A stretch of DNA of 64,000 nt from a bacterium (GTDB lineage Bacteria; Electryoneota; Electryoneia; Electryoneales; Electryoneaceae): positions 1 through 64,000 of the forward strand of contig JAHLLH010000005.1 of NCBI GenBank assembly GCA_020444265.1, given 5' to 3'. Positions 4,456-45,467 of the stretch are shown here, piece by piece. Each line of letters opens with the position of its first letter. Position 1 is the first letter of the stretch. The notes under the pieces are model-generated. The model was not told where the DNA came from. It searched no databases and saw only the letters and a list, made by a program, of their open reading frames with translations. A program made the translations under genes and the position numbers.

Positions 4456-4602
4456 CCACCACTCCTGGGTGATTCCAACTCCGTTTTCCCATCCAACATC
4501 GATTTGAAAGTGTTTCGCCTCTCAGAGGCGGTAATACAATCAGCAGCAATGCTAGTGTGATCGAATTCCAGCCGAACGACATCAGCGATATTACCGTTTC
4601 TC

Positions 4603-4611
4603 TGCTATCAT
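4603..4611 (+). promoter_or_regulatory. Possible extended -10 promoter upstream of a plus-strand micro-gene
   Basis: TGCTATCAT fits an extended -10 element (TGn followed by TATCAT). It lies in the AT-richer gap 4456-4723, about 110 bp before the ATG at 4724. No good -35 hexamer is seen, so this is only a candidate. The rest of the gap holds a short GCCTCTCAGAGGC palindrome and nothing else I can name. Confidence 0.25.
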
Positions 4612-4723
4612 CTCTTGTCTATTTCTTGCTTTTACAACCATCAATTCCACTTGCTTTCGCTACCTGGGTCAGAGATACTTTTCTGGCAGATGGGTAGATC
4701 TTCTATCAAGATGAGGCCCAACG

Positions 4724-5206
4724 ATGCAGGTCGATCCGATCACAACACTCCCGGACTGGCTAACCGCGTCCGCCGCTGTCGGGATGGTTGTGCTCGGCCT
4801 GTATGACCGCATCTTCCGGCGAAAGAAACGCCTGAAGGACAGGCCCTCGTCAATTCCTCGAATCGAGATCCACATCCACCAACCCCGCCGCATCGACTGC
4901 CAGCATCGCAGCGGCCAGCGCCCTGTCCGCCTGCTTGATGCTTCGGGTGTGCCTTACCAATACCCACTTTCTGGGCCGGTCGATGGTCAGGGCACGCCAT
5001 CCCTGGCTGACGGCATGCAGCAGCGCCTCGATCGCGGTACGTGCGTCGATGGAGGATGGTGCCAGGTCGGCATGCCGATGGTTGTAGAGGATCTGGATTG
5101 CAGTCTGGTAACGGGTCAAAACCCGCTGCCGAACAATCAGGTAAGGTTCGCTGGACATAAAAAGACGCCACCTCTCTCGCGGGTGGGCCGTTGCACCGGC
5201 CGCTAA
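4724..5206 (+). CDS. Possible single-span membrane micro-protein; 3' part overlaps an opposing gene
   Basis: The ATG at 4724 has a GAGG ribosome site 8 bases upstream. The first 42 codons encode a plausible small protein: a hydrophilic start, one membrane span (SAAVGMVVLGL), then a basic LYDRIFRRKKRLKD tail. The rest of the frame, to 5206, is exactly antisense to the minus-strand gene 4850-5158 and has unlikely composition. The sensible part ends where that gene's 3' end begins, so the original stop may have been lost or the peptide is extended. A hairpin plus six T residues at 5277-5316 could end its transcript. It resembles the 32-aa peptide at 6449 (LYDR then basic residues). Confidence 0.35.
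   Translation: MQVDPITTLPDWLTASAAVGMVVLGLYDRIFRRKKRLKDRPSSIPRIEIHIHQPRRIDCQHRSGQRPVRLLDASGVPYQYPLSGPVDGQGTPSLADGMQQRLDRGTCVDGGWCQVGMPMVVEDLDCSLVTGQNPLPNNQVRFAGHKKTPPLSRVGRCTGR
4850..5158 (-). CDS. Hypothetical phage protein, 102 aa
   Basis: No family recognised. Start set at ATG 5158, preceded by a GAGGTGG ribosome site; the longer frame to 5320 would run through a structured leader and is not supported. The protein is predicted mostly helical, with an even spread of charged residues (RTAIEALLHAVSQGWRAL, RKWVLVRHTRS). It stands between the Dam-type methylase and the baseplate hub gene. A 66-nt multi-stem structure (5180-5245) precedes the ribosome site, so its expression may be regulated separately. 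Confidence 0.55.
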   Translation of the reverse strand: MSSEPYLIVRQRVLTRYQTAIQILYNHRHADLAPSSIDARTAIEALLHAVSQGWRALTIDRPRKWVLVRHTRSIKQADRALAAAMLAVDAAGLVDVDLDSRN

Positions 5207-5361: not shown

Positions 5362-6267
5362 CTATACCTCCCACTGCCCACCAACTCCACCGATGGACAT
5401 CTGGTCACCCATCGTCCTGCGCCGTGCCTCTACCGCTGTCGGGTTTACCCAGACTACCTCGGTGCGCCTGCGATCAATGGTTGAATCTTCGTTGTGTCGG
5501 GTATGCCCCGCAGCTTTCATCGAGATACTGAATTCATGCCTCTCCCATTCCGCATCTACAAGGGGCTGATAAACATCGTGGTCGTAGCCACTCAGAATCA
5601 CCATCCCCTGCATATCCAGCAGCAGGGCAACAAAAAGCTCATGATCTTCCAGGGTCATTTCGTGACGGTACTGTCCACCTGCTCGAGTTTCTGGCACGTA
5701 GGGTGGATCGCAATAGACCAGTGTGTCTTCCCCGTCGTAGTGCTCTGCTGTCAGTATCGATTGCCATGATAGATTTTCTACCTGAACCTGCATAAACCTC
5801 TGCCCAACTTCATGCAGGTGAGACACAGCATTCAGATACCTTGCTACAGTTTCGACCATCGTTTTCTGGCCGTTACTCGACATTGCGCGGCCGAACGTGT
5901 GCCCGAACATCCCACCAAACGATCCCCTTGCCACATAGAAACAGGCAAAGGCTCGATCGATTTCCGTCCCTTCACCAGACAGAAGTAGTTCACGCTGCGT
6001 GTGCCACTCTCCCCTGCTGTACGGAGTCAGGTACGCCCGTCGCTGGAGTTCGCCGACCTGCATCGGGTCACGAAGCACACGGAAAAACGTGGTCAATGCC
6101 TCATCCCGATCGTTGTAGACTTCCACCTGGGAAGGCCGTTTCGCCAACAGGAGAGATGCAGCCCCCCCGAACGGTTCCACGTAGATCTTGTGTGGCGGAA
6201 ACAGGGGCAGGATGTTCTTGACCATCGCTTGCTTTCCTCCAAACCATCCAAAAGGCGGTTTAACCAT
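5362..6267 (-). CDS. dam: Dam-type DNA adenine methyltransferase (class alpha, N6-adenine)
   Basis: 301 aa. Transfers a methyl group from SAM to N6 of adenine. The SAM-binding motif PPFGWFGGK is at residues 4-12, the EPFGGAASLL motif I at 31-40, and the catalytic DPPY at 187-190; the order FxGxK...DPPY marks the Dam/M.DpnII class. Start at 6267 follows a GGAGGTGG ribosome site; the frame to 6288 is not needed. No restriction nuclease neighbours it, and it is inserted within the tail operon, which suggests protection of phage DNA from host restriction rather than an R-M system. It is one of three methyltransferases in the prophage. Confidence 0.93.
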   Translation of the reverse strand: MVKPPFGWFGGKQAMVKNILPLFPPHKIYVEPFGGAASLLLAKRPSQVEVYNDRDEALTTFFRVLRDPMQVGELQRRAYLTPYSRGEWHTQRELLLSGEGTEIDRAFACFYVARGSFGGMFGHTFGRAMSSNGQKTMVETVARYLNAVSHLHEVGQRFMQVQVENLSWQSILTAEHYDGEDTLVYCDPPYVPETRAGGQYRHEMTLEDHELFVALLLDMQGMVILSGYDHDVYQPLVDAEWERHEFSISMKAAGHTRHNEDSTIDRRRTEVVWVNPTAVEARRRTMGDQMSIGGVGGQWEV

Positions 6268-6448
6268 TACCCACCACCTCCAGCACATCCGACTTGATCA
6301 CCATTTCAACCATCCGGCTCTCTTTGTATCTCTTTGTTTTATTGTGCTCTAAAAATGCTCTCGCCTGAATTTCTTGCTTTGATGACATCCTTGGATTTGG
6401 AAGATCTCAGAATTTTCAGTTTATTAGGTTTCAAAAAGGCCATACCCC

Positions 6449-6547
6449 ATGTTCACCGAAATTGTTTCAACCCTTGCAGGGATTGTTGGCATTACCTGGT
6501 TCGGATTCTACTTGTACGATCGATTCCATAGACGACGGGGTGAGTGA
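6449..6547 (+). CDS. 32-aa single-span membrane peptide
   Basis: A complete plus-strand frame (ATG 6449, TGA 6545-6547) encodes MFTEIVSTLAGIVGITWFG followed by FYLYDRFHRRRGE: a membrane span and a basic tail. A weak AAGG ribosome site lies about 10 bases upstream. It fits neatly between the minus-strand methylase (start 6267) and gp43 gene (stop 6551), ending 3 bp before the latter. The preceding 180 bp (6268-6448) are AT-rich and could hold a promoter. It shares the LYDR-plus-basic ending with the frame at 4724. Possible roles include holin-like, exclusion or toxin-like peptide; none is proven. Confidence 0.45.
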   Translation: MFTEIVSTLAGIVGITWFGFYLYDRFHRRRGE

Positions 6548-6550
6548 CCC

Positions 6551-7726
6551 TCACCCCTGCCCCACCACCTCCAGCACCGTCCCACCTGGCACAAACCCCG
6601 GGTGCTCGAGGCCATTCCGTGCGATCAAGTCCGCTTCCTTCTCCAGGTCCCGGTAATAGTCCCATGCCAGCACCAGGGCAGGAAGTGTCGACGGCACCCG
6701 TACCTCCACCAGGTTGGGAAGTTGAACCGCCAGGTCACGCATCCCCGACAGCAACTGCCCCTGCAGGTCCTGGAGCGTCTGCCCCAGTTCCGGGTCAGTC
6801 GTCACTTCGACCAGCTCCTGGATACGGTCCCCCATCAGGCCGGCCAACTCCAGCGCTTCATCGCTGGAATCGTATGAGGCACGGATCGCGACACGAGCCA
6901 TTGCCGCAAGCAAGTCCGCCTGCATACGGACCCCGGCGATGTCCGCCGTTTCGCTGTCCCCGCTGGGCAACGCCAACCCGGACAGCATCTCGGTGTAGCC
7001 TTCGAGTTCCCCGCTGACACGGCCCGCCGTCAAGCGTGCATCCCCACGCGCATCCGGATCACTGCCCAGTGTGAAGGCTGTCGCCAGCACCTGGCTGATC
7101 CCCTCCACATCGTAGACCAGTTCCGTCAAACGGCTGCGGGCATTGTCGATCGACCGTCGAATGTCCGCCACCGAATTCGCGGCCCTGCGGGCATCATGCA
7201 CCAGGGCGAGCGCGTCGTCGATCGTGTTGACCACCTGCGCAGCACCACGGGCCGAATCATGCGCGATGTCCCACACCTCGTTCATCCACGCCCTTGCACG
7301 GGTCAGCACATTGCCTGCCGTGGTGTCCACTTCGGTGATCGGGTCAAGCACCGCCGTCTGCAAGGGGGAATAGGCCACAAACGGCATCACCACCACGATG
7401 TACTTGCCACGGTCCGAGCGGGTGGTGAAACGCGCTTCCCCATCCACCAGCACATCCAGCGATCCGTAGAAGGGGTGTTTTAGTCGGCCTGGACCTTCGG
7501 CCTCGAGGGCTTGCTGGAGTCTGTGACGGTCCGCCAGGACGGTAGGTCCGATCAGGAACGCTTCGACTTGGAAACGGCCTGTGCTCCGCCCCAAATCTTC
7601 GTGGGTTGCATCATCCCTGCCGGGGATGTCGTGGGAACGCAAACGGCGGCCGTGACGGTCTTCTGTCAGGCTGACATGAAACTCCACCCCGCGAAACGAT
7701 GCCTTTTCCAACCCGCTCCAACCCAT
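6551..7726 (-). CDS. DNA circulation/tail protein, Mu gp43-like
   Basis: 391 aa. The N-terminal third (KASFRGVEFHV, GRRLRSHDIPGRD, GRFQVEAFLIG) matches the DNA_circ_N domain of Mu gp43/N, a tail protein located between tape measure and baseplate hub. The C-terminal half is helical and less conserved. It follows the 234-aa gene with no gap. The next minus-strand gene (methylase) is inserted between it and gp44, interrupting the normal Mu order. Confidence 0.88.
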   Translation of the reverse strand: MGWSGLEKASFRGVEFHVSLTEDRHGRRLRSHDIPGRDDATHEDLGRSTGRFQVEAFLIGPTVLADRHRLQQALEAEGPGRLKHPFYGSLDVLVDGEARFTTRSDRGKYIVVVMPFVAYSPLQTAVLDPITEVDTTAGNVLTRARAWMNEVWDIAHDSARGAAQVVNTIDDALALVHDARRAANSVADIRRSIDNARSRLTELVYDVEGISQVLATAFTLGSDPDARGDARLTAGRVSGELEGYTEMLSGLALPSGDSETADIAGVRMQADLLAAMARVAIRASYDSSDEALELAGLMGDRIQELVEVTTDPELGQTLQDLQGQLLSGMRDLAVQLPNLVEVRVPSTLPALVLAWDYYRDLEKEADLIARNGLEHPGFVPGGTVLEVVGQG

Positions 7727-10086: not shown

Positions 10087-10103
10087 GTCTACCCTCTCTC
10101 CCT

Positions 10104-10210
10104 GGGTGGCCCGACTTGCTCGTCAAGTCGGGTGTATTCATCCAGTGTAGGCCGGATTCTTGAATCCGGCGAGGATGCCGTCAGGCATCGACCTCACCGC
10201 CGAAGGCGAC
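10104..10210. repeat. Composite hairpin repeat, modules A+B+C+D
   Basis: Same order as at 2840: CCCGACTTG/CAAGTCGGG followed by TGTATT, then GCCGGATT/AATCCGGC, then GATGCC/GGCATC, then CGCC/GGCG. It separates the tape-measure gene from the frameshift extension of the chaperone gene, ending at the extension's stop codon (10211-10213). Confidence 0.85.
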
Positions 10211-10977: not shown

Positions 10978-11328
10978 CTACACAAAGTCCCCGTTCGGCC
11001 CTTCAAACACCGCCGAGAGCTTCCTGGTTTGTGGGTTGAAGCTGCGCTCGCCCGAAAACGAACCATCCGTCAGCACGAAGGTCTGCCCGTTCTTGAATGG
11101 CACCTCGATCGTCGCACCATCCACATCGTAGATCGTCGACGGGCTTACGTTGTCCGGCACATACATCTCGATTTCGAGACGAGCCCCTTCACTCGTTTCC
11201 GTGAACCCGGCATGGCCGCTGTGCGACTGCATCGATTCACGCTTGTCGCCGCTGGGACGGCACATCGGTTCGCCGTCTGTCTGGTAACGGGTCCCGTTGA
11301 TCACGAGCCCATCCGCTCCACCCTTCAT
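10978..11328 (-). CDS. Tail tube protein, Mu gpM-like
   Basis: 116 aa, a usual length for Mu-type tubes. Segments typical of the family include GLVINGTRYQTDGE near the start and the beta-rich ARLEIEMYVPDNVS. Start at 11328 follows AGGCAGGAT; the longer frame to 11391 would translate repeat S2. Lies directly after the sheath gene, with an intervening repeat, as in Mu (sheath then tube). Confidence 0.85.
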   Translation of the reverse strand: MKGGADGLVINGTRYQTDGEPMCRPSGDKRESMQSHSGHAGFTETSEGARLEIEMYVPDNVSPSTIYDVDGATIEVPFKNGQTFVLTDGSFSGERSFNPQTRKLSAVFEGPNGDFV

Positions 11329-11349
11329 ATCCTGCCTCACTTTCCAAAA

Positions 11350-11392
11350 GTGACTGTCACCAAGGTTTTGACGTTTGAGAGTGACTGTCACC
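11350..11392. repeat. Paired-palindrome element S2
   Basis: Two GTGACTGTCACC palindromes 31 bp apart, separated by CAAGGTTTTGACGTTTGAGA. The element ends 22 bp upstream of the tail-tube start codon. Confidence 0.88.
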
Positions 11393-11481
11393 AGACCTTA
11401 CCCGGCCACCAGCCACCCCACCCAGGGGCGCCGGGTCCAGTCACCGGCCCACCGCCAGTGCAGGACCCGGCGTTGCCGCCC

Positions 11482-12966
11482 CTACTGCTTGAACTGGAAC
11501 GTGCCGGCAATCGACCGCAGCTGGTTCATCAGGTCCGGAGTCGCCAGCACTTCAACCACGTTCGGATCGCCCGTCTTTCGCTGCACCACGATGCCGTCCT
11601 TGAAGCTGTCGTAATCCTCGACCCAGCCCTTGCTGATCCAGGTCCGGCACAGCCCCAGCATCTCGTTCTTGATCCGCCCTGGCGTCACCACCGGTCCGCC
11701 TTCGGGACCCACACCCGCATCGCTGGAGGCCAGCTTCGCACGTGGGTAACGAGTCTGCATCTGGGTCACCGTCTCGTAACGCAGATGCATCAGGGTGAGC
11801 TTGGTGTTCAAGTCACGGTAGGTCGGGTCCGCAGCACCGGCACCGTTGGTCTGGTACATGGTCACTAGACGTTCAATCCGCATGGCACGGGCACCGTCCG
11901 GAACAACTGTCGCGATACCATCCAACAGGAGCAGCTCACGTTCCGTGCGGGTCAGATCGCTGCCGCGAGTCGGTGCGAGGATCCCCGTGAGGACTTCGGT
12001 CTGGAAGGGACGGGACGGGTCGGCAGATCCTTCCGTCGCCACCACAGCGGCAACCACAGCAGCCACATCTTCCGGTGTGTTCGGGATCCCGTTGCACCCC
12101 ACCGCCGTAACATGCTTCGAGTTGCGCCCGTTGCCCCAGCTGGCCAGCGCTGCCACCGATGTTGCCACCTTGCCTACAAAGACGTGCCCGTCGTGCATCA
12201 CATCCGCACCCCACTGGGCATCCAACACCGCCTCGATCGCAGTCAGGTTGGTCGCGTCCATATAGGGCATCGCGATCACCTGGTACCAGTCCTCACCGAT
12301 CAAGTCGGTGATCGTGGTAACATCCGGGTTGGTCGCACCGGCGGTCATCGCGGATCCTGTGTCACCCATTGCCGCAATGGTCACCGTCAGACCTGCAGGG
12401 ACCGCTTCACCGTCTCCGTAGCTGACACGCACATCGATGTCGTTACCCGCTTCACCCTTGTGACGTGCCGTCAGGCCGATCGTGCCGTCCTCGTTATCCG
12501 TGGCTGTCACCGGCAGATCGGTGTCGGCGTTGATCGCAGCGGCCACATCCGCATCGAGATCCGTGTGGGTATCCCCGACCGCCACCGCGACCGTGACCTT
12601 TTTCCCGGCAATCCAGAGATTGATCGTCCCTGCAGCCGTCGCAGTACCCGCCAGGGTGATCAGCCCGGTCGCTGCCACACCCGCGCCCGCGTCTGCTAGA
12701 CCGCCGCAGTAGAGCGCCGCCTTCGGGTTGGCCGCGAAATAGGCCGCGCACATGCGAGCCAGCTGACTGCCAACACCATAGTATTCTTCCGCCATCGCGA
12801 CAGAGGTCACCAGGTCGATACGGCCCTCGGCAAGGCTGCCAGCAGAAAGCAATCCGCCGATGAAGAGCACCTTGTAAGGCAGAGCCCCCACCCCATCCTG
12901 GGACTGGCTGCCATCAAAGTTGAATGCCACAATGGGCGTCAATCCTGTGGTCGGAAACGTGCTCAT
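11482..12966 (-). CDS. Tail sheath protein, Mu gpL-like
   Basis: 494 aa, normal for the family. Contractile sheath subunit. N-terminal region VAFNFDGSQSQ...LPYKVLFIG, an inserted domain at about 115-200 (VAVAVGDTHTDLDADVAAAI), and the conserved C-terminal sheath domain (LTRTERELLLLDGIATV, YRDLNTKLTLMHLRYETV, KDGIVVQRKTGDPNVVEVLA). Its start overlaps the gp38 stop by 4 bases. Directly upstream of the tube gene. Confidence 0.95.
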   Translation of the reverse strand: MSTFPTTGLTPIVAFNFDGSQSQDGVGALPYKVLFIGGLLSAGSLAEGRIDLVTSVAMAEEYYGVGSQLARMCAAYFAANPKAALYCGGLADAGAGVAATGLITLAGTATAAGTINLWIAGKKVTVAVAVGDTHTDLDADVAAAINADTDLPVTATDNEDGTIGLTARHKGEAGNDIDVRVSYGDGEAVPAGLTVTIAAMGDTGSAMTAGATNPDVTTITDLIGEDWYQVIAMPYMDATNLTAIEAVLDAQWGADVMHDGHVFVGKVATSVAALASWGNGRNSKHVTAVGCNGIPNTPEDVAAVVAAVVATEGSADPSRPFQTEVLTGILAPTRGSDLTRTERELLLLDGIATVVPDGARAMRIERLVTMYQTNGAGAADPTYRDLNTKLTLMHLRYETVTQMQTRYPRAKLASSDAGVGPEGGPVVTPGRIKNEMLGLCRTWISKGWVEDYDSFKDGIVVQRKTGDPNVVEVLATPDLMNQLRSIAGTFQFKQ

Positions 12967-13289
12967 TTCGACCCTCCAGCGTCAGTGTCTTCCCCAGCGC
13001 CCAAGCTCGCTTCAGCGGGCTTCGACGTTTTCTTTGGGCGCGTCGGGGATCCCCCGCCATTCGCACCCTGCTTCGGGGCTACCTTTGATTGATCCCCGTC
13101 AGATGGCACGGGTGCGTCCAGGGTGATGTCCCCCTGCTTCAGCCGACGACGCCAGTACGGTGCCCAGGCCACCGCCTGTCCCGTCGCCGGAATCACCATC
13201 GCCGTGTGCGGGTGACGGACCCGTCGACCTTCGGCCGGGTAGACCGTCACACGTTCACCTTGCGCTGGCATCTGTTTCGTCTCCTGCAT
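12963..13289 (-). CDS. Mu gp38-like small tail protein (DUF2635) with repeat-derived C-terminus
   Basis: 108 aa. The N-terminal 50 residues (VTVYPAEGRRVRHPHT, AVAWAPYWRRRLKQGDI) match DUF2635, the small protein just before the sheath in Mu-like phages. The rest is low-complexity and is encoded across a copy of hairpin repeat family F (12991-13050), so the tail probably arose by insertion of that repeat. The stop overlaps the sheath start. Confidence 0.82.
   Translation of the reverse strand: MQETKQMPAQGERVTVYPAEGRRVRHPHTAMVIPATGQAVAWAPYWRRRLKQGDITLDAPVPSDGDQSKVAPKQGANGGGSPTRPKKTSKPAEASLGAGEDTDAGGSK
12991..13050. repeat. Family F inverted repeat inside the gp38-like gene
   Basis: TCCCCAGCGCCCAA pairs with TTGGGCGCGTCGGGGA. 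Related copies are at 22191 and 28221. Here it is translated in frame as the gp38 C-terminal extension. Confidence 0.7.
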
Positions 13290-13305
13290 CTACAGCCTCC
13301 CTTTC

Positions 13306-13370
13306 GGGTGGCCCGACTTGCGACCGAGTGACTGTCACCAAGGTTTTGAGGTTTGAGAGTGACTGTCACC
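13306..13370. repeat. Truncated module A joined to paired-palindrome element S3
   Basis: GGGTGGCCCGACTTGC breaks off and runs straight into S3, two GTGACTGTCACC palindromes 31 bp apart (13328-13370). S3 begins 39 bp upstream of the gp38 start. The junction suggests that S elements insert into older A elements. The following 13374-13399 contains a short GCCCG/CGGGC hairpin. Confidence 0.75.
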
Positions 13371-13399
13371 AGCCCGATCAAACCGGGCGGTTTATCCAA

Positions 13400-13963
13400 T
13401 TATTGAGGTTCTACCTTGAATCCCTGATCAGCCACATCCTCGCTGCTGTTCATCTGCATCGTTCCGTCGATCGACTTGAAGGATTCTTCCGGACGTTCAC
13501 GCTGGGGACGGTTCTCGTCGTACTCGATCTGGTAACGCGCTACCAGTCCCCCAACCGCCACCAACCCTTCACCCAGGTCCGTTTGATCGTTCAACTCCTC
13601 ACTGCCGGCGGGCACCAGGTCGGTGACCACACCGCCGAGGGTTTCATCCTCCAACAGGGCTACCCTTGCGGACGCTGCGTAATCATCCAAATCGTTCGCC
13701 AGGTCGTCGTACTGCCCGTCATCGTCCGGTGTACGGTCAAAGTCGATAAAGACAAGTTCCAGACGGCCATTCATTTCGTAGGTGTCAGGCCCCCTGCGAA
13801 TCGTCCCCACATCATCCGTGTGGATCCGCACGAGGCAGCAGGGCAGATGCTGGTACCACGTCGGCGATAAACGGCCGCCGTAAATCCGTTTCGGCAAGCC
13901 ATCCGCCGCACGCAACACCTCCAGCACCTTCCGCCTGATCGCCTTCCGTTTGCTGCTCGCCAT
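13400..13963 (-). CDS. Mu gp37-like tail protein
   Basis: 187 aa from ATG 13963; the frame to 14002 would begin inside repeat DNA. The segment EMNGRLELVFIDFDRTPDDD plus its slot before gp38 and sheath fit the Mu gp37/DUF1834 position, usually taken to be a tail-terminator or minor tail protein. Sequence recognition alone is weak, so the call rests mostly on gene order. Confidence 0.65.
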   Translation of the reverse strand: MASSKRKAIRRKVLEVLRAADGLPKRIYGGRLSPTWYQHLPCCLVRIHTDDVGTIRRGPDTYEMNGRLELVFIDFDRTPDDDGQYDDLANDLDDYAASARVALLEDETLGGVVTDLVPAGSEELNDQTDLGEGLVAVGGLVARYQIEYDENRPQRERPEESFKSIDGTMQMNSSEDVADQGFKVEPQ

Positions 13964-13977
13964 CCCTGTCCGTCTCC

Positions 13978-14073
13978 TGGGTGCCCCGGCTTGACTTGCC
14001 AAGCCGGGTTTCTGTGTCCAGTGTAGGCCGGGGTTTCCAACCCCGGCGAGGATGGGCGTTAGCCCATCGACCG
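13978..14073. repeat. Composite hairpin repeat, modules A+B+C'
   Basis: CCCGGCTTG/CAAGCCGGG followed by TTTCTGT, then GCCGGGGTT/AACCCCGGC, then GATGGGC/GCCCATC. Sits between the gp37-like start and the stop of the 125-aa head-tail gene. Confidence 0.85.
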
Positions 14074-14074
14074 C

Positions 14075-14452
14075 TTATACCGTCCTGAAATAGATCGTTG
14101 TCACCCCGTGCCGCTCGATCGGAGGCTGGCTCACCTGGTAGGTCCGCCCCTTGATCACCACCTTGTCATTCGGCTGGATCTTCGCCGTCAGCAGATGCGA
14201 CGGCACCATCAGCTGAGGTGTCGCACTCGGCACCATCACCCCCGAATCCAGGTCCAGCTCCACACCCGTTTCATCGAAGATCCCCGACACCGTCAAGGGC
14301 GATTGGTTCGCCAGCAGCAGCGTAGCCGACACCGAAAATTCCGCCGAAAACACCGCCGCCAGGTCTGCCTGGAATTGCGCATCGATGTCGGACATGACCG
14401 CGAGGATCCCGACCGCTGTTCCCACCGCTGTCCTCGGCGCAATCCCGTTCAC
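14075..14452 (-). CDS. Head-tail joining protein, gpFII/attachment-like
   Basis: 125 aa. GTG start at 14452 has GGAG 7 bases upstream; an internal ATG (14395) lacks a ribosome site. Predicted beta-rich C-terminal domain (LLTAKIQPNDKVVIKGRTYQV) resembles small head-tail attachment proteins of the lambda gpFII type. It lies between head genes and the first tail genes, as expected for a connector. Confidence 0.6.
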   Translation of the reverse strand: MNGIAPRTAVGTAVGILAVMSDIDAQFQADLAAVFSAEFSVSATLLLANQSPLTVSGIFDETGVELDLDSGVMVPSATPQLMVPSHLLTAKIQPNDKVVIKGRTYQVSQPPIERHGVTTIYFRTV

Positions 14453-23216: not shown

Positions 23217-23330
23217 AGGGTGCCCCGGCTTGTCTTGCCATGCCGGGTTTCTTCATCCATGTTGGCCGGGGTTTCCAACCCCGGCGAGGATGGGCTTCAG
23301 CCCATCGACCGCACCGCCGAAGGCGACGCT
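23217..23330. repeat. Composite hairpin repeat, modules A+B+C'+D
   Basis: CCCGGCTTG-type hairpin followed by TTTCTTC, then GCCGGGGTT/AACCCCGGC, GATGGGC/GCCCATC and CGCC/GGCG. Its end forms the last codons of the gene 23297-23659. Confidence 0.85.
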
Positions 23331-23679: not shown

Positions 23680-23729
23680 AACAGGTCACGCTCTACAGCG
23701 GATTTCTCCGCCGCAAAACGTGACCTGTT
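23680..23729. promoter_or_regulatory. Long inverted repeat with nested hairpin (operator or leader structure)
   Basis: AACAGGTCACG (23680-23690) and CGTGACCTGTT (23719-23729) pair perfectly over 11 bp; the loop contains a second hairpin GCGGA/TCCGC (23698-23711). It sits 20 bp upstream of ATG 23659, so it could be a repressor site or an mRNA leader. The remaining gap 23730-23904 contains a family E repeat at about 23812-23850 and nothing else named. Confidence 0.5.
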
Positions 23730-23811
23730 CTATTCCCAACCCTTCGCATCACCCAATCCAACCAGGGCGACCATGATGCATCAGGGTTCCGTTCGCTTGT
23801 CAGCTGGTGAA

Positions 23812-23850
23812 GTCATTGCGAGGAAGCGAAGCTGCCGAAGCAACCCCCTT
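23812..23850. repeat. Family E repeat
   Basis: GTCATTGCGAGGAAGCGAAG followed by CTGCCGAAGCAACCCCC. Confidence 0.7.
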
Positions 23851-23904
23851 CCACCCGCACCCTCTTCACCGTTCAGCCGTTACATCGTCCACTCCGATTT
23901 CAAC

Positions 23905-23941
23905 CAAAAAAGCGTGGGGCATCATTTCCCCGATGCCCCAT
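23905..23941 (-). terminator. Rho-independent terminator
   Basis: On the minus strand TGGGGCATC (940-932) pairs with GATGCCCCA (923-915), 9 bp, followed by CGC and six T residues. It ends the three-gene run 24032-24775. Confidence 0.8.
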
Positions 23942-24031
23942 CATACACCCAGCAAACGCTCCGCACAACCCCCCAGGTGAGGGGAAAAAAACTTCTCCTC
24001 CCCGGCCTCCTGCTTAATCGACTCCAAGCGA

Positions 24032-25459: not shown

Positions 25460-25533
25460 CTCCACCTCCTGTTCCACACTTCCCCCGGCGCCGACACTGA
25501 TCTACCACGTGTCGACTCCTGTCAGCTCCTATA

Positions 25534-25562
25534 ACATTATCGGTCGGATCCGGCCTTGGCAA
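25534..25562 (-). promoter_or_regulatory. Sigma-70-type promoter for the hicBA operon
   Basis: TTGCCA (25557-25562) and TAATGT (25534-25539) on the minus strand, 17-bp spacer. The leader contains a CGACAC/GTGTCG hairpin that may be an operator. The rest of the gap to 25768 contains a GTGTTACG/CGTAACAC inverted repeat near 25615 and no gene. Confidence 0.65.
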
Positions 25563-25768
25563 GAGTCATAAGTGTTTTTGGTCGAGACCCATTTTTCATA
25601 ACATGTTGTTTTTTAGTGTTACGCTCCGTTACGTAACACCCCCCTCGTCCACTGATCAGGGAGAAGAACAATTGTTTTCGTCCCCATTTAGTCGCGGGTT
25701 CGGGTCGAATCATCAGCGATTCATCCCGAACTCGCTACTATTAGACGCTGGATCCTATAGAAAGTTCC

Positions 25769-37339: not shown

Positions 37340-37690
37340 GTCAACCATCCCCGGTCCTTTCCGTCCTGCCTTGCCTTCCCCGTCAACCACTCCCCGACCA
37401 ATACACCGTTTGGAGATGGATTCGGAAACCTCCCGTCAACCCGTGGAAACCACCCCACCGCTCCCGCTGTCAACCACTGCCCGCGATGTCAACCCGTCAA
37501 ATCCCGTCCAAACTCTCACCCACCGCGCCTCAGCGTGACCCGCAATGGTCTGATCCCCAGAAGGACCCGTCGAATTGAGAATCCTGAGATTTATCATCCT
37601 CTTTTTTCACACAATTCATGTTTTTCTGAAAAAGAAAAATTCCCCGCATTGAATAGGCGATTTTTCTCAAGATTCTCCGTTACCACCCGG
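37340..37690. other. Candidate phage replication origin (iterons plus AT-rich tract)
   Basis: The 391-bp gap between the primase-helicase stop and the next gene has five GTCAACC copies in one orientation (37340, 37382, 37435, 37469, 37488) plus GTCAAAT at 37496, followed by an AT-rich stretch (about 37575-37680). The AT-rich part is bracketed by an imperfect inverted repeat, GAGAATCCTGAG (37577-37588) and CTCAAGATTCTC (37666-37677). Direct iterons next to an AT-rich unwinding region beside a replication gene is the classic layout of an initiator-dependent origin. Confidence 0.5.
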
Positions 37691-40615
37691 TATATTTTGC
37701 CCGCGCGAACCGCTCGTCTGTGTTTCTTCTATCTTTAGACCAGACTGGCGGGCCTTGTGGCGATCGATAAAGCGAAAGACAGTGGTGTTGCCGTCCGGCA
37801 ACGGATCTACTTGGATACCGACCAGTTCGAACGCTTTGCTGAGCTCGCGAATACGGTTGGAGATGTTCTTCGCCCCACCGTAAGGCGGCAGCTTGATCTC
37901 GCCCTGGTTGTGCTCGAGGAACTTTGGCAGCTCGCCCGGTTTCTTCTCGAACTGGATCAACTGCCTATCGTTGTCGAACACAGCCCGCACAGCAGCCACC
38001 AGCTTGTCCATGTCGACGATGCTGATCGCTTGGGCACGCTGCATCTCCATGATCGCGGCCAGCCCATCCTCGCTTTCCAGTCCAAGCACGGTTTCCGCGA
38101 ATTCGTCGTACCTGGACAGGTCCACCCCACTTGTCTTGGCCGCTTGTGCCCTGCTTCGACCCACCACCTGGCCTCGAAGTGCCTGGTAGACCAGCCAAGT
38201 CATCACGCCATCGCGGGCTGCACGCACTTCCTCGGCCAGTTCCCTCGTCGATCGACGCTGTACGGCCGGCATATCGCCAAAAAAAAGGGGTAGCATACGA
38301 GAGAGGACATCGGGACGACGGGCAAAGGCAGCCGTACGGCTGCTGATGGCCACCGCAGCGGTTGCGCGAAGCTGAACCAGGTCATCATCGCTGTACAGCC
38401 GTCTGGTCTCCAGCATGCCCCCAGTGACAGTGGTTGCCAGGGAATCGGGAAACCAATCAGGCGGACGTTCGTCCGCATTATCCAGGACATGCAGGGCCTT
38501 CCTGGACACCGATACCGCCCAGTCGTGCTCGTTCCTGGACATCGACGCCACATCGAAGGTGGCCCCCTGCAGCAGGTGCAGCAGCAGTCGCAGCAGCGTC
38601 GTCTTACCGCTGTCAGCGTCCCCCATTGCCAGCAGAACCGGCAGGGGACGGATATTCGCCATGATCGCTACCAACCACCCAGTCAGCAGCGTTCCCTGCA
38701 TGGAATCGTCGTACCGCAGGATTTCTGGCGGGTTCGTCAGGGCAGGCTTCAACGCACCAACATCACGCGGATCGATCATGTCGTCAGGATGGAGTAGCTC
38801 CCACTCAGGGAAGACGGCCGTGCCATCGAACAGCACACCCTCTTCCCCATTAGGCAGGGCTTCCATCTTGACTTTGCTGCCTTCCAAGCTGGCCACCACC
38901 ATCTGCCGCGAACCATTGCTGACAAACAGCCGCCCATTCTTCCACGTCGACCACCTGGCAAGCACCACCCTCTTCCCTTGACGGATGCAGGCGGTCTCCA
39001 GTTCATGAATGAGGTGTTTGAACGCATTCTCTGAGGCGTTGACCCCAACACGATTGATCAACACACGCAGGTGCTGACTGTTGCCCATCACTGGCAAGGC
39101 TTCGTGTTCATCCGTCAGGACAAATGCACCGGACGGCCTGGACGAGTCATCGCAAAGCAACCACCCGTGTTCATCGAAATAGCGGCAGACCAGCCCGCTC
39201 GCTTCCTGCTGCATCATCCGTATCGGCATCCCCTTGCGGGGCATATTGAGGAGGGTGTTGACACGTTCTGCCAGGCTTCCAAGCCCATTCAGGCTTTGCG
39301 TGTCGGTCAGATCCTCCACCTTATCGGCAGGGTTGGTATTTTCCCTTTCTGCGATTTCACGCATCCGGGCTTTTAGGTCGTTTTTACCCGCCCCGGAACG
39401 GGCCACAATCAGGTTCAACGCTTCCGCCTGCTCCATCCGGTTCAGACGCAGCACAACGCCCAACGCCTTGTCGACGGCAGGCAGTCGCTTATCAATTGGT
39501 GAAGAGGGGTAGATGTCCTCCAGGATGGCTGTCACATCAGCCAGGGAGGCAGGTTTTTCCGGCTGCGCCGAACCGCTTGGCCGTTGACTTGACACTCTTG
39601 TTCGGTCATCCGACCGAACCCCACGGTCCTCGATGTAGAGATCCCGCATCGAGAGACCCAGCTGGGCCAGGATGTGGTCCGCCTCGCAACCGGCATAGCA
39701 CATCACCGTCGCCTTCCCACCTTCCCCGCGGGACACCTTCAGCGACGGCCGGTCATCATCGTGCGCAGGGCACTGGGCCATCCAGTAGTCGCCATGCTGA
39801 TCGATGGTGCTGCCACGGTTGCCCAATTCGACCAGGATGCGTTCAACCGGATCTTCGCCCTCCTGCAGCTGACGTTCCGGACCTGACCCCGCCTTCTTTC
39901 CATCGAATAGAGTGTTGCTTTTCTTCCTGGTTCCTTTGGCGTACGCCCTGATCCACTCGGGTGGGTTGGACGGGTCGAACGGTTGCCCGTTCCGAATCAG
40001 TGCATGGAATTGACCGTCGGTGTGCCCTTCCTCAATCCAGTCGCTGACATCAAACCCGGACCCGATTTCCCCACCAAGAGGACGATGCAGGTAGACCTTG
40101 GTCGCGATCCCTTCCAGGGCCATCGCAACCGTGACCATGTGCTGCACACCGGGCTTGTCGTTGTCCGGAATCAGGTGGACAACCTTATCCCGCAGCGTTT
40201 CCTCGTACCCGTATTCCGGCTTCCAGCTTTTGGACCCCTGGGCGTTGGTCGTTGCCGGCACATCCCACTTCTGCAGGTTGTCGACGTCCTTCTCCCCTTC
40301 GACCAGCACCACCGTCTGCATGTCCATGATTTCCGGAAGACGGTACAGCACCCGACGCGGGACATCCTCAAACTGTCTGGACTCCTGCCCCTCTTCCGCC
40401 CCGGAGGATCGCTTCGACCAGGAACGGCCCGTTTTCACATACGTGCCGGCCGTCAGGGCGTTCACCCACCCGCTGACACCATCGATGCGACGCCTTTGGA
40501 AGAATCCCTTCGGCTGCTTACGGACCACCTGGTAGAGGAGACGACCCTCCTCATCCAGGTAGTTGTACTGGATCCACCCGTTCTTTTGGACTTCGCCGGG
40601 TCCGGATTTAGGCAC
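37667..40615 (-). CDS. Primase-helicase with Toprim, CHC2-like zinc finger and AAA ATPase domains
   Basis: 982 aa. Toprim at about 100-190 (VVLVEGEKDVDNL, then VHLIPDNDKPG with the acidic pair). A CHC2-like zinc motif follows at about 282-310 (CPAHDDDRPSLKV...CYAGC). The helicase-like ATPase begins at about 663 (MGDADSGKTTLLRLLLHLL, Walker A), with KALHVLDNADERP as a likely Walker B and TAAVAISSR as sensor. The order Toprim before zinc finger is the reverse of standard DnaG-type primases. It stands next to the candidate origin and presumably starts phage replication. No separate DnaB or DnaC is seen. Confidence 0.85.
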   Translation of the reverse strand: MPKSGPGEVQKNGWIQYNYLDEEGRLLYQVVRKQPKGFFQRRRIDGVSGWVNALTAGTYVKTGRSWSKRSSGAEEGQESRQFEDVPRRVLYRLPEIMDMQTVVLVEGEKDVDNLQKWDVPATTNAQGSKSWKPEYGYEETLRDKVVHLIPDNDKPGVQHMVTVAMALEGIATKVYLHRPLGGEIGSGFDVSDWIEEGHTDGQFHALIRNGQPFDPSNPPEWIRAYAKGTRKKSNTLFDGKKAGSGPERQLQEGEDPVERILVELGNRGSTIDQHGDYWMAQCPAHDDDRPSLKVSRGEGGKATVMCYAGCEADHILAQLGLSMRDLYIEDRGVRSDDRTRVSSQRPSGSAQPEKPASLADVTAILEDIYPSSPIDKRLPAVDKALGVVLRLNRMEQAEALNLIVARSGAGKNDLKARMREIAERENTNPADKVEDLTDTQSLNGLGSLAERVNTLLNMPRKGMPIRMMQQEASGLVCRYFDEHGWLLCDDSSRPSGAFVLTDEHEALPVMGNSQHLRVLINRVGVNASENAFKHLIHELETACIRQGKRVVLARWSTWKNGRLFVSNGSRQMVVASLEGSKVKMEALPNGEEGVLFDGTAVFPEWELLHPDDMIDPRDVGALKPALTNPPEILRYDDSMQGTLLTGWLVAIMANIRPLPVLLAMGDADSGKTTLLRLLLHLLQGATFDVASMSRNEHDWAVSVSRKALHVLDNADERPPDWFPDSLATTVTGGMLETRRLYSDDDLVQLRATAAVAISSRTAAFARRPDVLSRMLPLFFGDMPAVQRRSTRELAEEVRAARDGVMTWLVYQALRGQVVGRSRAQAAKTSGVDLSRYDEFAETVLGLESEDGLAAIMEMQRAQAISIVDMDKLVAAVRAVFDNDRQLIQFEKKPGELPKFLEHNQGEIKLPPYGGAKNISNRIRELSKAFELVGIQVDPLPDGNTTVFRFIDRHKARQSGLKIEETQTSGSRGQNIPGGNGES

Positions 40616-41493: not shown

Positions 41494-41756
41494 CAGCCTA
41501 CCTTCCCGAGCATGTTTGGCGTCCAGGTAGCGGATTCAACAACCCGGATCAGGTCTTCTGCCTTGTACCAGACGTTCTTTCCCCGCTTCAGTCGGGCAAC
41601 ACCTTGCTCATCACAGAATTCGGCGAAAAAACGAGGGGACATATCGAAGAGATTCGCAGCCGTCGTGCTGCGGACCAGCAGCTGCTTCTTGTTTCGGATC
41701 CGCTCGAGGATCACATCTGCAGGAAGGGGCTGACGTTTGGAACGGGTTCCACTCAT
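41493..41756 (-). CDS. Excisionase/MerR-type DNA-binding protein
   Basis: 87 aa. LLVRSTTAANLFDMSPRFFA then KRGKNVWYKAEDLIRVVES is a MerR-like winged helix of the excisionase or helix-turn-helix_17 type. It may act as excisionase or early regulator. Stop and start overlap neighbours. Confidence 0.65.
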   Translation of the reverse strand: MSGTRSKRQPLPADVILERIRNKKQLLVRSTTAANLFDMSPRFFAEFCDEQGVARLKRGKNVWYKAEDLIRVVESATWTPNMLGKVG

Positions 41757-42289
41757 CCTTCCCCTCCCAGCCGCGATTCGGAGTCGTTCAATTCCCCCTC
41801 GATGTCGGACAGGCAGCGGCGTATCTCACGGACCCGCTCACGGATCCCGATGATCGCCTTTGCCGACTTCACCTCGTTGGCCGCACGGAACATCTCGCCG
41901 ATGTTGACCGTCATGTCCGACAGTTCATCGTCGATGCGGCCGTTCAGGCGGTCCGACATGCCCGGTTTTGGCACACAGGGCTCACATCCGATCTGATCAA
42001 GGAGTAGGTCGATCAGGGCAGGATCCCCGGTCGCGAGGTAGGAAGACTGCAGGTCCGGCCAGGTAATCACCGTACGGCCAGGCCAGCCGTCGCGACGAGG
42101 ACTTTGCGCGTAGGTCGTCAGCGGATAAACATCGTTCCGCCCCATATGGACCTGCAGCAAACCCGCCGAAAGCCCACGTTCCTGCTGGGCACGGTGGATC
42201 ATCTCGCCGAAAACACGATTCGGTGGGGACTCTTCCCACCGTTCGCGTAGATCTTCGATAATCGGCTTCAACAGAGGCTTAGTCGGCAT
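41753..42289 (-). CDS. Phage regulatory protein, CII/CP76-like
   Basis: 178 aa. The N-terminal 110 residues (VFGEMIHRAQQERGLSAGLL...VYPLTTYAQ...YLATGDPALIDLLL) fit the CP76-type phage regulatory family, the C-terminus is a long coiled coil (RVREIRRCLSDIEGELNDSE). First gene of the leftward early operon, divergent from the repressor. AGAGG ribosome site; no clear -35 upstream, consistent with an activator-dependent promoter. Confidence 0.65.
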   Translation of the reverse strand: MPTKPLLKPIIEDLRERWEESPPNRVFGEMIHRAQQERGLSAGLLQVHMGRNDVYPLTTYAQSPRRDGWPGRTVITWPDLQSSYLATGDPALIDLLLDQIGCEPCVPKPGMSDRLNGRIDDELSDMTVNIGEMFRAANEVKSAKAIIGIRERVREIRRCLSDIEGELNDSESRLGGEG

Positions 42290-42361
42290 ACGTGCCTCTT
42301 TCTACCAGTCCACGGAGATTAGAATTGCCTCGCCCACCCGAGAGGACGATATTTGGACAAA

Positions 42362-42640
42362 GGGACACCCAGCCCCGTACGTTGGTCGCGGGCGAGGCTG
42401 GGTGTGGGTGACGTTCCATCAGCCCGGACAGGGAGGCGCCGGGGTGTGCGTGGTTCACGCAACGATGTGGAACGTCTGGGTCACGCCTCGCGGCGTTGTA
42501 ACCTGGGCAGCGCTCGAGAGAGCGAACGGCCCGGGACAGCGAAACGGGGGGTGTTCCGCCATCCCGGTGCCGGTGTGGATGCGTAGCAGCCGTCCCCACA
42601 GCCGTACGCCCCCATGCTGCACCCCGCTGGACATCCGACG
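42362..42640 (+). ncRNA. Candidate novel structured RNA
   Basis: No coding potential on either strand. Successive perfect helices on the plus strand: 365-374/396-405 (10 bp); 410-418/468-476 (9 bp) enclosing 423-427/439-443 and 447-452/456-461; 483-487/492-496 with a TCGC loop; 502-508/529-535 (7 bp) enclosing CGCTC-GAGA-GAGCG (511-524), a GNRA tetraloop; 560-564/577-581 and 581-585/605-609 compete for one base near the 3' end (numbers are 42000 plus). GNRA polarity favours the plus strand. No known class is recognised. It lies in the immunity control region. Confidence 0.5.
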
Positions 42641-42709
42641 CGCATCGTGAACCAGCGGAAAAAGTCATCTTTGGTTGGGTCGTTGTTTGCACACCAGCCT
42701 CCCGTTCGC

Positions 42710-42738
42710 GTGAGCCCTTAAAAGCCATAATGGCTCAC
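42710..42738. promoter_or_regulatory. Operator-like nested palindromes upstream of the repressor
   Basis: GTGAGCC (42710-42716) and GGCTCAC (42732-42738) form an outer inverted repeat; within it AGCCAT-A-ATGGCT (42723-42735) is a compact palindrome. CATAAT (42726-42731) could serve as the repressor's -10. It is in the 42290-42755 divergent control region, so it is the best candidate for the phage repressor's binding site. Confidence 0.6.
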
Positions 42739-42755
42739 AGGAGACATAATAGGCG

Positions 42756-43580
42756 ATGAAAAACGACTTGTCAAGACCCTGGCGGGACAGGGAGACCGTT
42801 GCCTCGATCATCAACCTGATCGAGACAGTGCTTCTCGTGTCTGGCGGGAAACTGGCAAAAATATTAGATGTAAGTTCAGGCGGTTTAAGCAATTGGCGTT
42901 CAGGACGCCAAGGTATGGCTCCCGAAAAGTGGTCTCGCCTGATTGCGTACTTGAAGGGAACATGGGGCCTGGAACCCGGAGACATACTTGCTCATGATTT
43001 TGCAGATCGATTCAAGAAAGCAGCAGAAAGGGGACAAATCGGACGGGTAGCCTTCATGAAAGGCATCCCTCCGCGTGGTGATTTAGGAAATTCGGAGACC
43101 AGGGAACCCGGCTCAGCGATATCGAGTGCAAACGATCCGGACGAGACGCCGCCCCACCCCGCAAAGCTGGGGAAGGTAAAAATGACACACGTCATCCCGA
43201 CTGGATCAGACGAAGCACCGTATTTGAAAGTTGAGCCAACCGAGCCCATCGACCTGGATGCGTTGCCAGATGAAGAGGTAAATGTTACCGGCGACCAGTT
43301 GTCACACGTCTACGGTGTGCCGGTTCCCCTCCCCCCGATCCAAAACCGAAAGCTGTTAGCCTTTCTCCTCGACCCATCCATCACCAGGGCCATCGGCCTG
43401 CAATGGATCGAGGTGGGCATGCTCGCACGAACCCCTCTCGCAGAGTGGCAAACCTCCACACGGATCCTGATCGACCTGGTCATGCAGTTCCGCGAAGCCC
43501 GCGAACGTGGCGAGATCATTGACGCCCAACTCCGGGAAGAATGGACAACAAGTATTTCAGATTCTAAACAATCACAGTGA
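42756..43580 (+). CDS. Putative phage repressor (HTH N-terminus)
   Basis: 274 aa. Residues about 25-75 form a helix-turn-helix-like unit (LVSGGKLAKILDVSSGGLSN then WRSGRQGMAPEKW), followed by a Pro/acidic linker and a C-terminal helical domain (LQWIEVGMLARTPLAEW). Divergent from the early operon with an operator-like palindrome just upstream, this is where lambdoid-type phages put the CI equivalent. No LexA-type autocleavage Ser/Lys is evident, so induction would work by another route. An AGGAG ribosome site lies 12 bases upstream. Confidence 0.65.
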   Translation: MKNDLSRPWRDRETVASIINLIETVLLVSGGKLAKILDVSSGGLSNWRSGRQGMAPEKWSRLIAYLKGTWGLEPGDILAHDFADRFKKAAERGQIGRVAFMKGIPPRGDLGNSETREPGSAISSANDPDETPPHPAKLGKVKMTHVIPTGSDEAPYLKVEPTEPIDLDALPDEEVNVTGDQLSHVYGVPVPLPPIQNRKLLAFLLDPSITRAIGLQWIEVGMLARTPLAEWQTSTRILIDLVMQFREARERGEIIDAQLREEWTTSISDSKQSQ

Positions 43581-43591
43581 TGGAGAGTAAA

Positions 43592-44221
43592 ATGGCCCAC
43601 AAGAAACAGTCACCAGGACAAATCGCTCTTGGTATCATTATCTGGATTGTCGTTCTTGTCGTCATAAACAATATATTTTGTTCTAACAATGACACTCTAG
43701 AGGGTACATCTTGGAGTAATTCGGGCTCTTCGAATTCCAATAAAACAAATTCCCCAGAGAAAGCTACTCCCACTTTTGCCATCGGAGAAACGTTTACCCT
43801 CGGGAAGTATCAATATCACATCACACACGTAAAACGCGGCAGTGCCATCGGCACAAAATACAACAACACCAAGGCATCCGATGGCGCTGTCTTTGTTGCG
43901 ATTTACTATACAATTGAAAATATAGACAATGAGACTCATGTTGTCGCTTTAGATGATTTTATACTTGTTGACTGGCTTGGACGCAGGTTTGATGCATCCT
44001 CCAATGCGAACACCCAGCTATCATTTCTACTCGACTACAAGGGGCTCTTTTCGGAACAGCTTCAGCCCGGCCTAATGCGGAAAATGGTCACCGCTTACGA
44101 GGTACCCACTCAAGTACTGGAAAATGCCATCACCTTTGAAATTCCCGAGAAAGGCATCTGGAACACAGGCATATCTCGCGTTGTAGTAAAACCTGATCAG
44201 ATCACGGACATCGCCAGATAA
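43592..44221 (+). CDS. Membrane-anchored DUF4352-like protein (lysogenic conversion/exclusion candidate)
   Basis: 209 aa from ATG 43592, preceded by GGAGAG. N-terminal membrane span (ALGIIIWIVVLVVINNIF) followed by a Ser/Asn linker and an immunoglobulin-like domain of the DUF4352 (TRF2-interaction/telomeric repeat-like) type: FAIGETFTLGKYQYHI, FVAIYYTIENIDN, LVDWLGRRFDASS. Base composition is AT-richer than its neighbours, suggesting later acquisition. It is in the lysogeny cluster between repressor and integrase, where superinfection-exclusion proteins are common. TAATG overlap with the integrase. Confidence 0.7.
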   Translation: MAHKKQSPGQIALGIIIWIVVLVVINNIFCSNNDTLEGTSWSNSGSSNSNKTNSPEKATPTFAIGETFTLGKYQYHITHVKRGSAIGTKYNNTKASDGAVFVAIYYTIENIDNETHVVALDDFILVDWLGRRFDASSNANTQLSFLLDYKGLFSEQLQPGLMRKMVTAYEVPTQVLENAITFEIPEKGIWNTGISRVVVKPDQITDIAR

Positions 44222-45336
44222 TGCCCACCCTCGAACCCCGCAAAACCAGTAAGGGCACCTCATGGCGGTTCGTCTACCAGCTTGACGGTCGGCAGAAGAA
44301 AATCACCATCGGGGTGACCAACCAGACCACCGCGCAGAAGCGGTACGTCGAGCTTGCCAATATCCTCGCATCCGGACGTGACCCCGCAGCTGTCGTCAAA
44401 CGCAGCAAAGCGAAAAGCATCAAGCTATCCGAGACCCTTACCCAGGACATGAAGTGGTGCGAGGGGCGACGGCAACCCCGCACCATCGAAAGCTACACCT
44501 ACGCCTGGAACCTGCTGGTCGATCACATCGGCGACATCCAGACCGTCCGTTTGACAAAGGAGGACGCAGAGGACTGGATCAAATCCCTCCTCGCCAGGGG
44601 ATGGTCCCCGGCCGGTGTCGGCATCGTCTTCCGGGCAGTCCGAGCGATCCTTTCACGGGCCGTCAAGGTCCACGGCATCCTCGAATCCAACCCCTTCAGC
44701 GGCGTCCAGGTGCCAAGGATCGACTCGAAACGGAAACAGGCATCCACCAGGCCGCGATACCTCACCCACGCCGAAGTGACTGCTTTGCTCCAATTAATCC
44801 CGGATGGCGAGCTACACCACCTGGTCCGCTTCATGCTGTTGACCGGCGCACGGCCCAGCGAGGCGCTCGAGATCACATGGAAAAAGGTCGACCTCGACCA
44901 CAAGGAACTGTGGCTCGGCGACCCCAATAGCCTGACCAAATTGTATCGACGATTCCCGATCGGTGACCAGCTGCGCGAATTGATCCTGCAGATCCCACAA
45001 GGCAACCCCAGCGACCGCCTTTTTGCAGGCATGGCCACCGACCACCGCGCCCTGGACAAACGATTCAAACGCCTGTTTGAATCAAAGCGGTACACTCCTA
45101 CCCACCCGGCACCACCGGAAGAGGACCAGAAGCGTCGGCAACAGCTGATTGATACAATCGGATCGACCACACCCTACGTCCTTCGCCACACCTTCGCCAG
45201 CCATGCATTACTGAACGGTGTGCCGATCAAAGTGGTGGCATCCTGGCTTGGCCACACCACCACCTACACTACTGAACTGTATGGCCACCTCATCACCGAG
45301 ATTAGCGATGAATACACCGACCGCATTAACTTCTAA
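44221..45336 (+). CDS. int: Tyrosine integrase
   Basis: 371 aa. SAM-like N-terminal domain at about 85-165, catalytic domain 175-365. Catalytic residues seen: Arg211 (TGARPSEAL), Lys about 240, Arg322 in PYVLRHTFASH (the usual first His of HxLR is Tyr), His345 (WLGHTTTYT) and nucleophile Tyr354 (TELYGHL). Cuts and joins attP and attB by site-specific recombination. The gene ends 80 bp before the tRNA-Pro half-site, the usual int-att spacing. The 45340-45395 stretch is a polypyrimidine tract that may hold accessory sites. Confidence 0.95.
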   Translation: MPTLEPRKTSKGTSWRFVYQLDGRQKKITIGVTNQTTAQKRYVELANILASGRDPAAVVKRSKAKSIKLSETLTQDMKWCEGRRQPRTIESYTYAWNLLVDHIGDIQTVRLTKEDAEDWIKSLLARGWSPAGVGIVFRAVRAILSRAVKVHGILESNPFSGVQVPRIDSKRKQASTRPRYLTHAEVTALLQLIPDGELHHLVRFMLLTGARPSEALEITWKKVDLDHKELWLGDPNSLTKLYRRFPIGDQLRELILQIPQGNPSDRLFAGMATDHRALDKRFKRLFESKRYTPTHPAPPEEDQKRRQQLIDTIGSTTPYVLRHTFASHALLNGVPIKVVASWLGHTTTYTTELYGHLITEISDEYTDRINF

Positions 45337-45416: not shown

Positions 45417-45458
45417 CTGGGGGTCAGGGGGTCGCTGGTTCAAATCCAGTCGCTCCGA
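45417..45458 (+). other. Phage attachment site: 3' half of tRNA-Pro(GGG)
   Basis: The sequence corresponds to tRNA-Pro from anticodon loop CTGGGGG (GGG anticodon at 45419-45421), the 3' anticodon strand TCAGG, the T arm GGTTCAAATCC and acceptor strand CGCTCCG to the discriminator A. No 5' half precedes it: no D arm and no CGGAGCG acceptor partner. CCA is not encoded. It is the duplicate left at the right phage end; the full tRNA gene should be at the left end, outside this window. Confidence 0.8.
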
Positions 45459-45467
45459 CATTGAAGA

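Follow-up and report, generated by a model that had tools for sequence, protein, structure and literature searches.

Genomic setting of the folded spacer

The window analyzed here is a stretch of 64,000 nucleotides that opens at base 1 of contig C2, already within a prophage. The right attachment site (45417..45460) matches, over 44 identical nucleotides (C16:904-947), the 3' end of a tRNA-Pro(GGG) gene on contig C16, where the prophage has its other end. This tRNA gene adjoins 900 bases resembling the terminal part of a phage tail gene. Because the attachment core is common to both contigs, we infer a prophage of about 46.4 kb in the tRNA-Pro gene, divided between C2 and C16.

All lytic genes (terminase, portal, tail, methylase, primase) are encoded on the minus strand, downstream of a 466-base spacer, and the plus strand carries the integrase (44221..45336, 371 amino acids; Pfam Phage_integrase, 2.8e-19) and a putative repressor. 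The spacer separates the divergent repressor gene (42756..43580, plus strand, 274 amino acids), which has weak helix-turn-helix matches to PHROG 4441/638, from a CII-like regulator (41753..42289, minus strand, 178 amino acids), which heads the early lytic operon and has matches to Pfam Phage_CP76 (E 5e-5, under the cut-off) and PHROG 101 (E 0.007). Further along the same operon lies a Toprim primase-helicase (37667..40615, minus strand, 982 amino acids), whose primase zinc-finger and AAA matches are weak.

Viral scans with the CII-like, repressor, primase and integrase proteins, and with DNA patterns, identified one sister phage, IMGVR_UViG_3300028883_000081, at 71-94% nucleotide identity where aligned. 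The sister contig stops on either side of the segment of interest, such that 37.5-43.1 kb of the window is missing from it. Between the repressor and the integrase, the window encodes a DUF4352/DUF5067 protein (43577-44221), likely a lysogeny cargo gene; the sister phage lacks it, and its integrase directly follows the repressor. A dispersed repeat of about 95 nucleotides with three hairpins occurs at 2849-2942, 10101-10193, 13965-14082 and 23218-23312, and at least 40 copies, complete or partial, are spread across the host genome. At the site of the 13965-14082 copy the sister phage has none, and it has another copy where the window lacks one. This repeat is like a REP or MITE element, in phage and host alike.

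The spacer holds a non-coding fold best read on the minus strand

The original prediction described an unrecognized, structured RNA at 42362-42640, between the CII-like gene and the repressor, read on the plus strand. The gene assignments above bear out its position, and the helices are where it had placed them: a 9-bp stem enclosing two hairpins (GACGTTCCA/TGGAACGTC on the plus strand, 42410-42418/42468-42476), a helix of 10+ bp (ACACCCAGCC.../...GGCTGGGTGT, 42365-42377/42393-42405) and a CGCTC-GAGA-GAGCG hairpin on the plus strand. The choice of strand is not supported. Over the same coordinates the shuffle z score is -4.86 on the minus strand versus -1.74 on the plus strand. The proposed interval is indeed folded, but it is too short, as a further 7-bp hairpin at 42624-42658 belongs to the structure.

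For the extended element, 42362-42665, the minus strand folds at -159.8 kcal/mol (z -5.52), with none of 100 shuffles folding as well and a centroid of nearly the same energy as the minimum (-158.3 kcal/mol); the plus strand reaches z -2.94. The energy difference between strands is -4.0, against a shuffle mean of +8.2 (sd 5.0), and 0 of 60 duplex shuffles match it. Mean pair probability is 0.93 in the minus fold versus 0.71 in shuffles. The plus fold is as sharply defined (likewise 0.93), thus the strands are told apart by energy only and not by sharpness of the ensemble. Eleven of the 108 minus-strand pairs are G-U pairs, available on that strand only, and three of these fall within a 15-bp helix (42531-42545/42553-42567). 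The domain that contains this helix accounts for most of the strand bias.

Read 5' to 3' on the minus strand, the structure begins with a hairpin, CCGCUGG/CCAGCGG (42624..42658; 7 bp, with an inner hairpin; pair probability 0.99, z -2.5), followed by domain A (42505..42623), a four-way junction with GCAGC/GCUGC as its closing pairing and three hairpins, among them the 15-bp helix with its G-U pairs (z -5.5, versus -1.9 on the plus strand). Next comes a hairpin, ACGCC-GCGA-GGCGU (42479..42503; z -2.4, plus strand -1.2), capped by a GNRA tetraloop. The loop had been reported as GAGA, which is what the plus strand shows; on the relevant minus strand it is GCGA, at 42488-42491. Domain C (42410..42476; z -3.1, plus strand -2.6) consists of the 9-bp stem GACGUUCCA/UGGAACGUC around two hairpins, and domain D (42365..42405; z -4.3) is a long terminal hairpin, ACACCCAGCC/GGCUGGGUGU. 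The domain D hairpin is not followed by a U-run, and a terminator was not called there. Several of the helices are perfect inverted repeats at the DNA level.

The GC content of the stretch is 70%, and the whole leader interval (42290-42710) has a z score of only -2.2. Ranked by a composition regression, the element is third among 458 windows of 280 nucleotides, and so is unusual, yet not the most folded place in the window. One 280-nucleotide register, at 23522 on the minus strand, has a shuffle z of -7.3, stronger than the element; strong folding alone is thus no proof of function in this prophage. Overlapping that register is a non-coding region with several strong hairpins (23690-24031, minus strand) whose counterpart in the sister phage is 94% identical. 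A strongly folded spacer at 25478-25768 (z -5.6 in the 25482 plus-strand register), downstream of a DNA polymerase sliding-clamp-like gene, has no match in the sister phage.

The original claim that the stretch is non-coding stands. Its longest frame (minus strand, 42279-42728, 149 amino acids) has a codon-usage score of -0.25 versus +0.34 for the CII-like gene, and every tested frame in the stretch (at least 47 amino acids) scores negative, from -0.05 to -0.28, versus +0.18 to +0.34 for the neighboring minus-strand genes. The codon test is informative mainly for the minus strand, because the repressor, a plus-strand gene, has a score close to zero. The 149-residue frame has no match in PHROGs and no tblastn match in phages, nor is it common to the spacer of the second prophage described below. 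On the codon scores, the absence of PHROGs or tblastn relatives and the absence of a shared frame, we rejected coding on either strand. The element is thus real, non-coding, folded beyond chance and best read on the minus strand.

Searches for RNA families and homologs

The RNA had also been called unrecognized, and this agrees with a scan of the whole window against the Rfam 15 covariance models, C4 (RF01695) and ROOL/GOLLD included, which gave no match at the gathering threshold; relaxing the threshold brought up nothing but mir-9193 and aceE-II noise, with no C4 (RF01695). DNA similarity searches of 99 relatives, phages and plasmids returned only the element itself and a 27-nucleotide match in one relative (G049), which we take to be chance. 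Matches to 16-mer patterns covered short stretches of the region only and were likewise treated as chance. Single-sequence covariance models of both halves, run against 39 genomes and viral loci, found the element itself and one weak match (L033, E 0.044) that lies antisense within a reading frame and was also set aside as chance. When genomes were scanned with alignments of CII and of the primase, only distant Toprim proteins were recovered, none adjoining a CII-like gene. Integrase and primase relatives from the same phylum were not counted, as the elements that carry them are different ones that lack CII-like and repressor genes. None of these searches, whether by DNA, protein neighborhood, pattern or single-sequence covariance model, found a homolog. 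The element is a good candidate locus, short of a discovery.

A second prophage with the same gene order

Another prophage in the same genome (locus L015, G000:C17:60000-76000) has the integrase, repressor, long spacer, CII-like gene and primase in the same order. In L015 coordinates, the integrase (4075-5202) and the repressor (about 5378-6046) are on the minus strand, and the CII-like gene (6367-6915) and primase (11184-14105) are on the plus strand. The CII-like proteins of the two prophages are 38% identical and the primases 44%; the putative repressor and its divergent counterpart are 26% identical over the alignment. A promoter match, TTGACA-18-TAAACT (10/12 bases), lies over the repressor start and reads into the CII-like gene. 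The control region also contains TTGCGTA-type repeats, operator-like in look.

The whole L015 spacer folds strongly on the lytic-sense strand (z -4.7) and is palindromic on both strands. In the leader proper, the antisense strand has z -7.4 versus -3.3 for lytic-sense, so the bias towards lytic-sense is absent, which weakens the strand argument there. The spacers of the two prophages have no sequence similarity and do not align. Given the unaligned sequences and the antisense folding, the parallel backs the presence of a folded spacer at this position, not a common RNA family.

Two explanations that involve no functional RNA bear on these observations. First, the stretch may act as DNA, through protein-binding inverted repeats, as a replication origin or by forming a single-strand structure, and the RNA fold would then be a by-product. 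Several helices are perfect inverted repeats, the L015 spacer is palindromic on both strands too, and a primase gene lies within the same operon. We nevertheless regard this as rather unlikely, as G-U pairs and a minus-strand bias are unexpected for DNA palindromes, and iterons are absent, with only two-copy repeats of 9-15 nucleotides present. Second, the fold could be an accident of high GC content (70%) or of gene decay, with no selected function. The element is a single copy with no homolog found, other stretches of the window have similar or stronger z scores, and the L015 spacer shares neither its sequence nor its strand preference. Against this, not one of the 100 shuffles folds as well, the strand bias and tightly defined ensemble are unlike an accidental fold, and the codon score is unlike that of a decayed gene; we consider this explanation unlikely.

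A predicted leader of the early lytic transcript

Just one strong promoter-like site occurs near the spacer: TTGACA-17-TATTAT (42746..42774, minus strand), a predicted early lytic promoter that matches 11 of 12 consensus bases, identified by consensus match only; 0.2 promoter-like sites are expected in the region. Read in the 42774-42746 direction, it overlaps the first repressor codons, and its expected start, near 42739, falls just ahead of a palindrome, GTGAGCC...GGCTCAC (42710..42738), whose operator-like role is suggested by its position between the divergent genes. With a predicted minus-strand promoter over the repressor start and the lytic genes on the same strand, the folded stretch is most likely part of a leader of about 450 nucleotides on the early lytic transcript, ahead of the CII-like gene.

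Our preferred reading, held tentatively and at somewhat under an even chance, is that this structured 5' leader controls the CII-like/primase operon in cis. Once the repressor releases, RNA polymerase would transcribe the leader first, on the minus strand from 42774-42746, and the RNA would fold into the 5' hairpin, the four-way junction, the GNRA hairpin, a three-way junction and the long terminal hairpin. The leader may then decide in cis, by antitermination, attenuation or protection, whether transcription or translation enters the operon, perhaps as a switch in which two alternative 9-bp pairings exchange with the main fold. In short, we infer the function, transcription, cis action and switching of the leader. 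A regulatory role, one of two that the original prediction had offered, is the most natural one from the lytic-leader position; the other, packaging, is without evidence. A packaging signal was accordingly dropped, the terminase being 11 kb distant.

Alternatively, the element could be a stand-alone phage RNA, trans-acting or with a scaffold-type role of the GOLLD/ROOL kind, encoded here by happenstance. Several well-defined domains, junctions and a GNRA loop would suit such an RNA, and GOLLD and ROOL are themselves phage-borne RNAs of unknown function (PMC12286853). However, the element is about 300 nucleotides long versus often more than 800 for GOLLD, has no Rfam match, and lies immediately before an operon and not by a tRNA island. 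Neither a promoter of its own nor a U-run terminator for a separate RNA is evident at the element. We find this alternative quite improbable.

Alternative pairings within the leader

The leader contains five exact 9-nucleotide self-complementary pairs, where 0.56 are expected in shuffles, a number exceeding all 300 shuffles; when 300 prophage windows are compared, the top 9-nucleotide pair counts fall on its span. Three of the five pairs fall within the main fold, and two lie outside it. The first of these, UGGUUCACG/CGUGAACCA (42646..42654 with 42451..42459, minus strand), has one arm in a domain C hairpin, and forcing it gives a fold 2.1 kcal/mol above the minimum. The second, GCCUCGCCC/GGGCGAGGC (42390..42398 with 42327..42335, minus strand), costs 6.2 kcal/mol above the minimum, and its arm at 42327..42335 lies between domain D and the ribosome-binding site. 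Since two spare 9-mers would not be unusual by chance, a switch built on these pairings is a lead.

The same pairings raise the possibility of RNA-based immunity, in which the leader is cut or ended to give a stable small RNA, such as domains C-D. This RNA would terminate the lytic transcript, pairing upstream (42646-42654) and downstream (42327-42335) in the manner of P4 CI and P1/P7 C4. P4 likewise has a primase-helicase in the operon downstream, as seen here. Two exact 9-nucleotide complements flank domains C-D and rival the main fold at 2.1 and 6.2 kcal/mol, and in P4, CI pairs with seqA and seqC, one on each side (PMC4825925). The resemblance is incomplete: P4 uses one CI RNA for both targets, whereas the complementary 9-mers on both sides of domains C-D come from two different stretches, and a protein repressor gene is present. 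With no match to C4 (RF01695), and with two extra 9-mers that are not rare by chance (0.56 pairs expected in all), RNA-based immunity seems distinctly unlikely.

The preferred cis-acting leader also has a bolder form, in which the element would represent a new leader RNA class of about 300 nucleotides with several junctions, replacing a protein antiterminator or repressor, and a near-isoenergetic switch would set the choice between lysis and lysogeny. The two related prophages of one host would then do the same job with unrelated sequences. We consider this form unlikely.

Comparison with known RNA control systems

To our knowledge, few temperate phages steer an early operon by RNA alone, namely through HK022 put, P4 CI and P1/P7 C4. 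These systems have been worked out mainly in enterobacterial phages, and HK022 put suppresses termination via the beta-prime zinc-binding domain of RNA polymerase. The HK022 put sites, putL and putR, are cis-acting structured RNAs in phage early leaders; putR lies about 270 nucleotides downstream of the PR start, and put is about 70 nucleotides long with two stem-loops (PMC9378689). Similar to put, the element is a structured RNA predicted in a temperate phage's early transcript, after a near-consensus predicted early promoter. Unlike put, with its two stem-loops in about 70 nucleotides, the element extends over about 300 nucleotides and five domains.

With P4 CI and P1/P7 C4, the element shares an apparent place in an immunity-region lytic leader and self-complementary stretches within it, but it has a protein repressor gene and no Rfam C4 match, and two separate complementary pairs take the place of one CI RNA with two targets. 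ROOL and GOLLD resemble it in being phage-borne, large and intricately folded with no known protein partner; the element, however, is much shorter, has no family match, and lies away from tRNA genes, in a putative leader. The best reading is of a cis-acting RNA leader tuning early transcription, analogous to HK022 put or to P4 CI/P1 C4, by likeness and not by established membership of either. If this is true, RNA steering of the early operon would be more widespread than these examples, with far bigger RNAs, and would extend to a sparsely sampled phylum.
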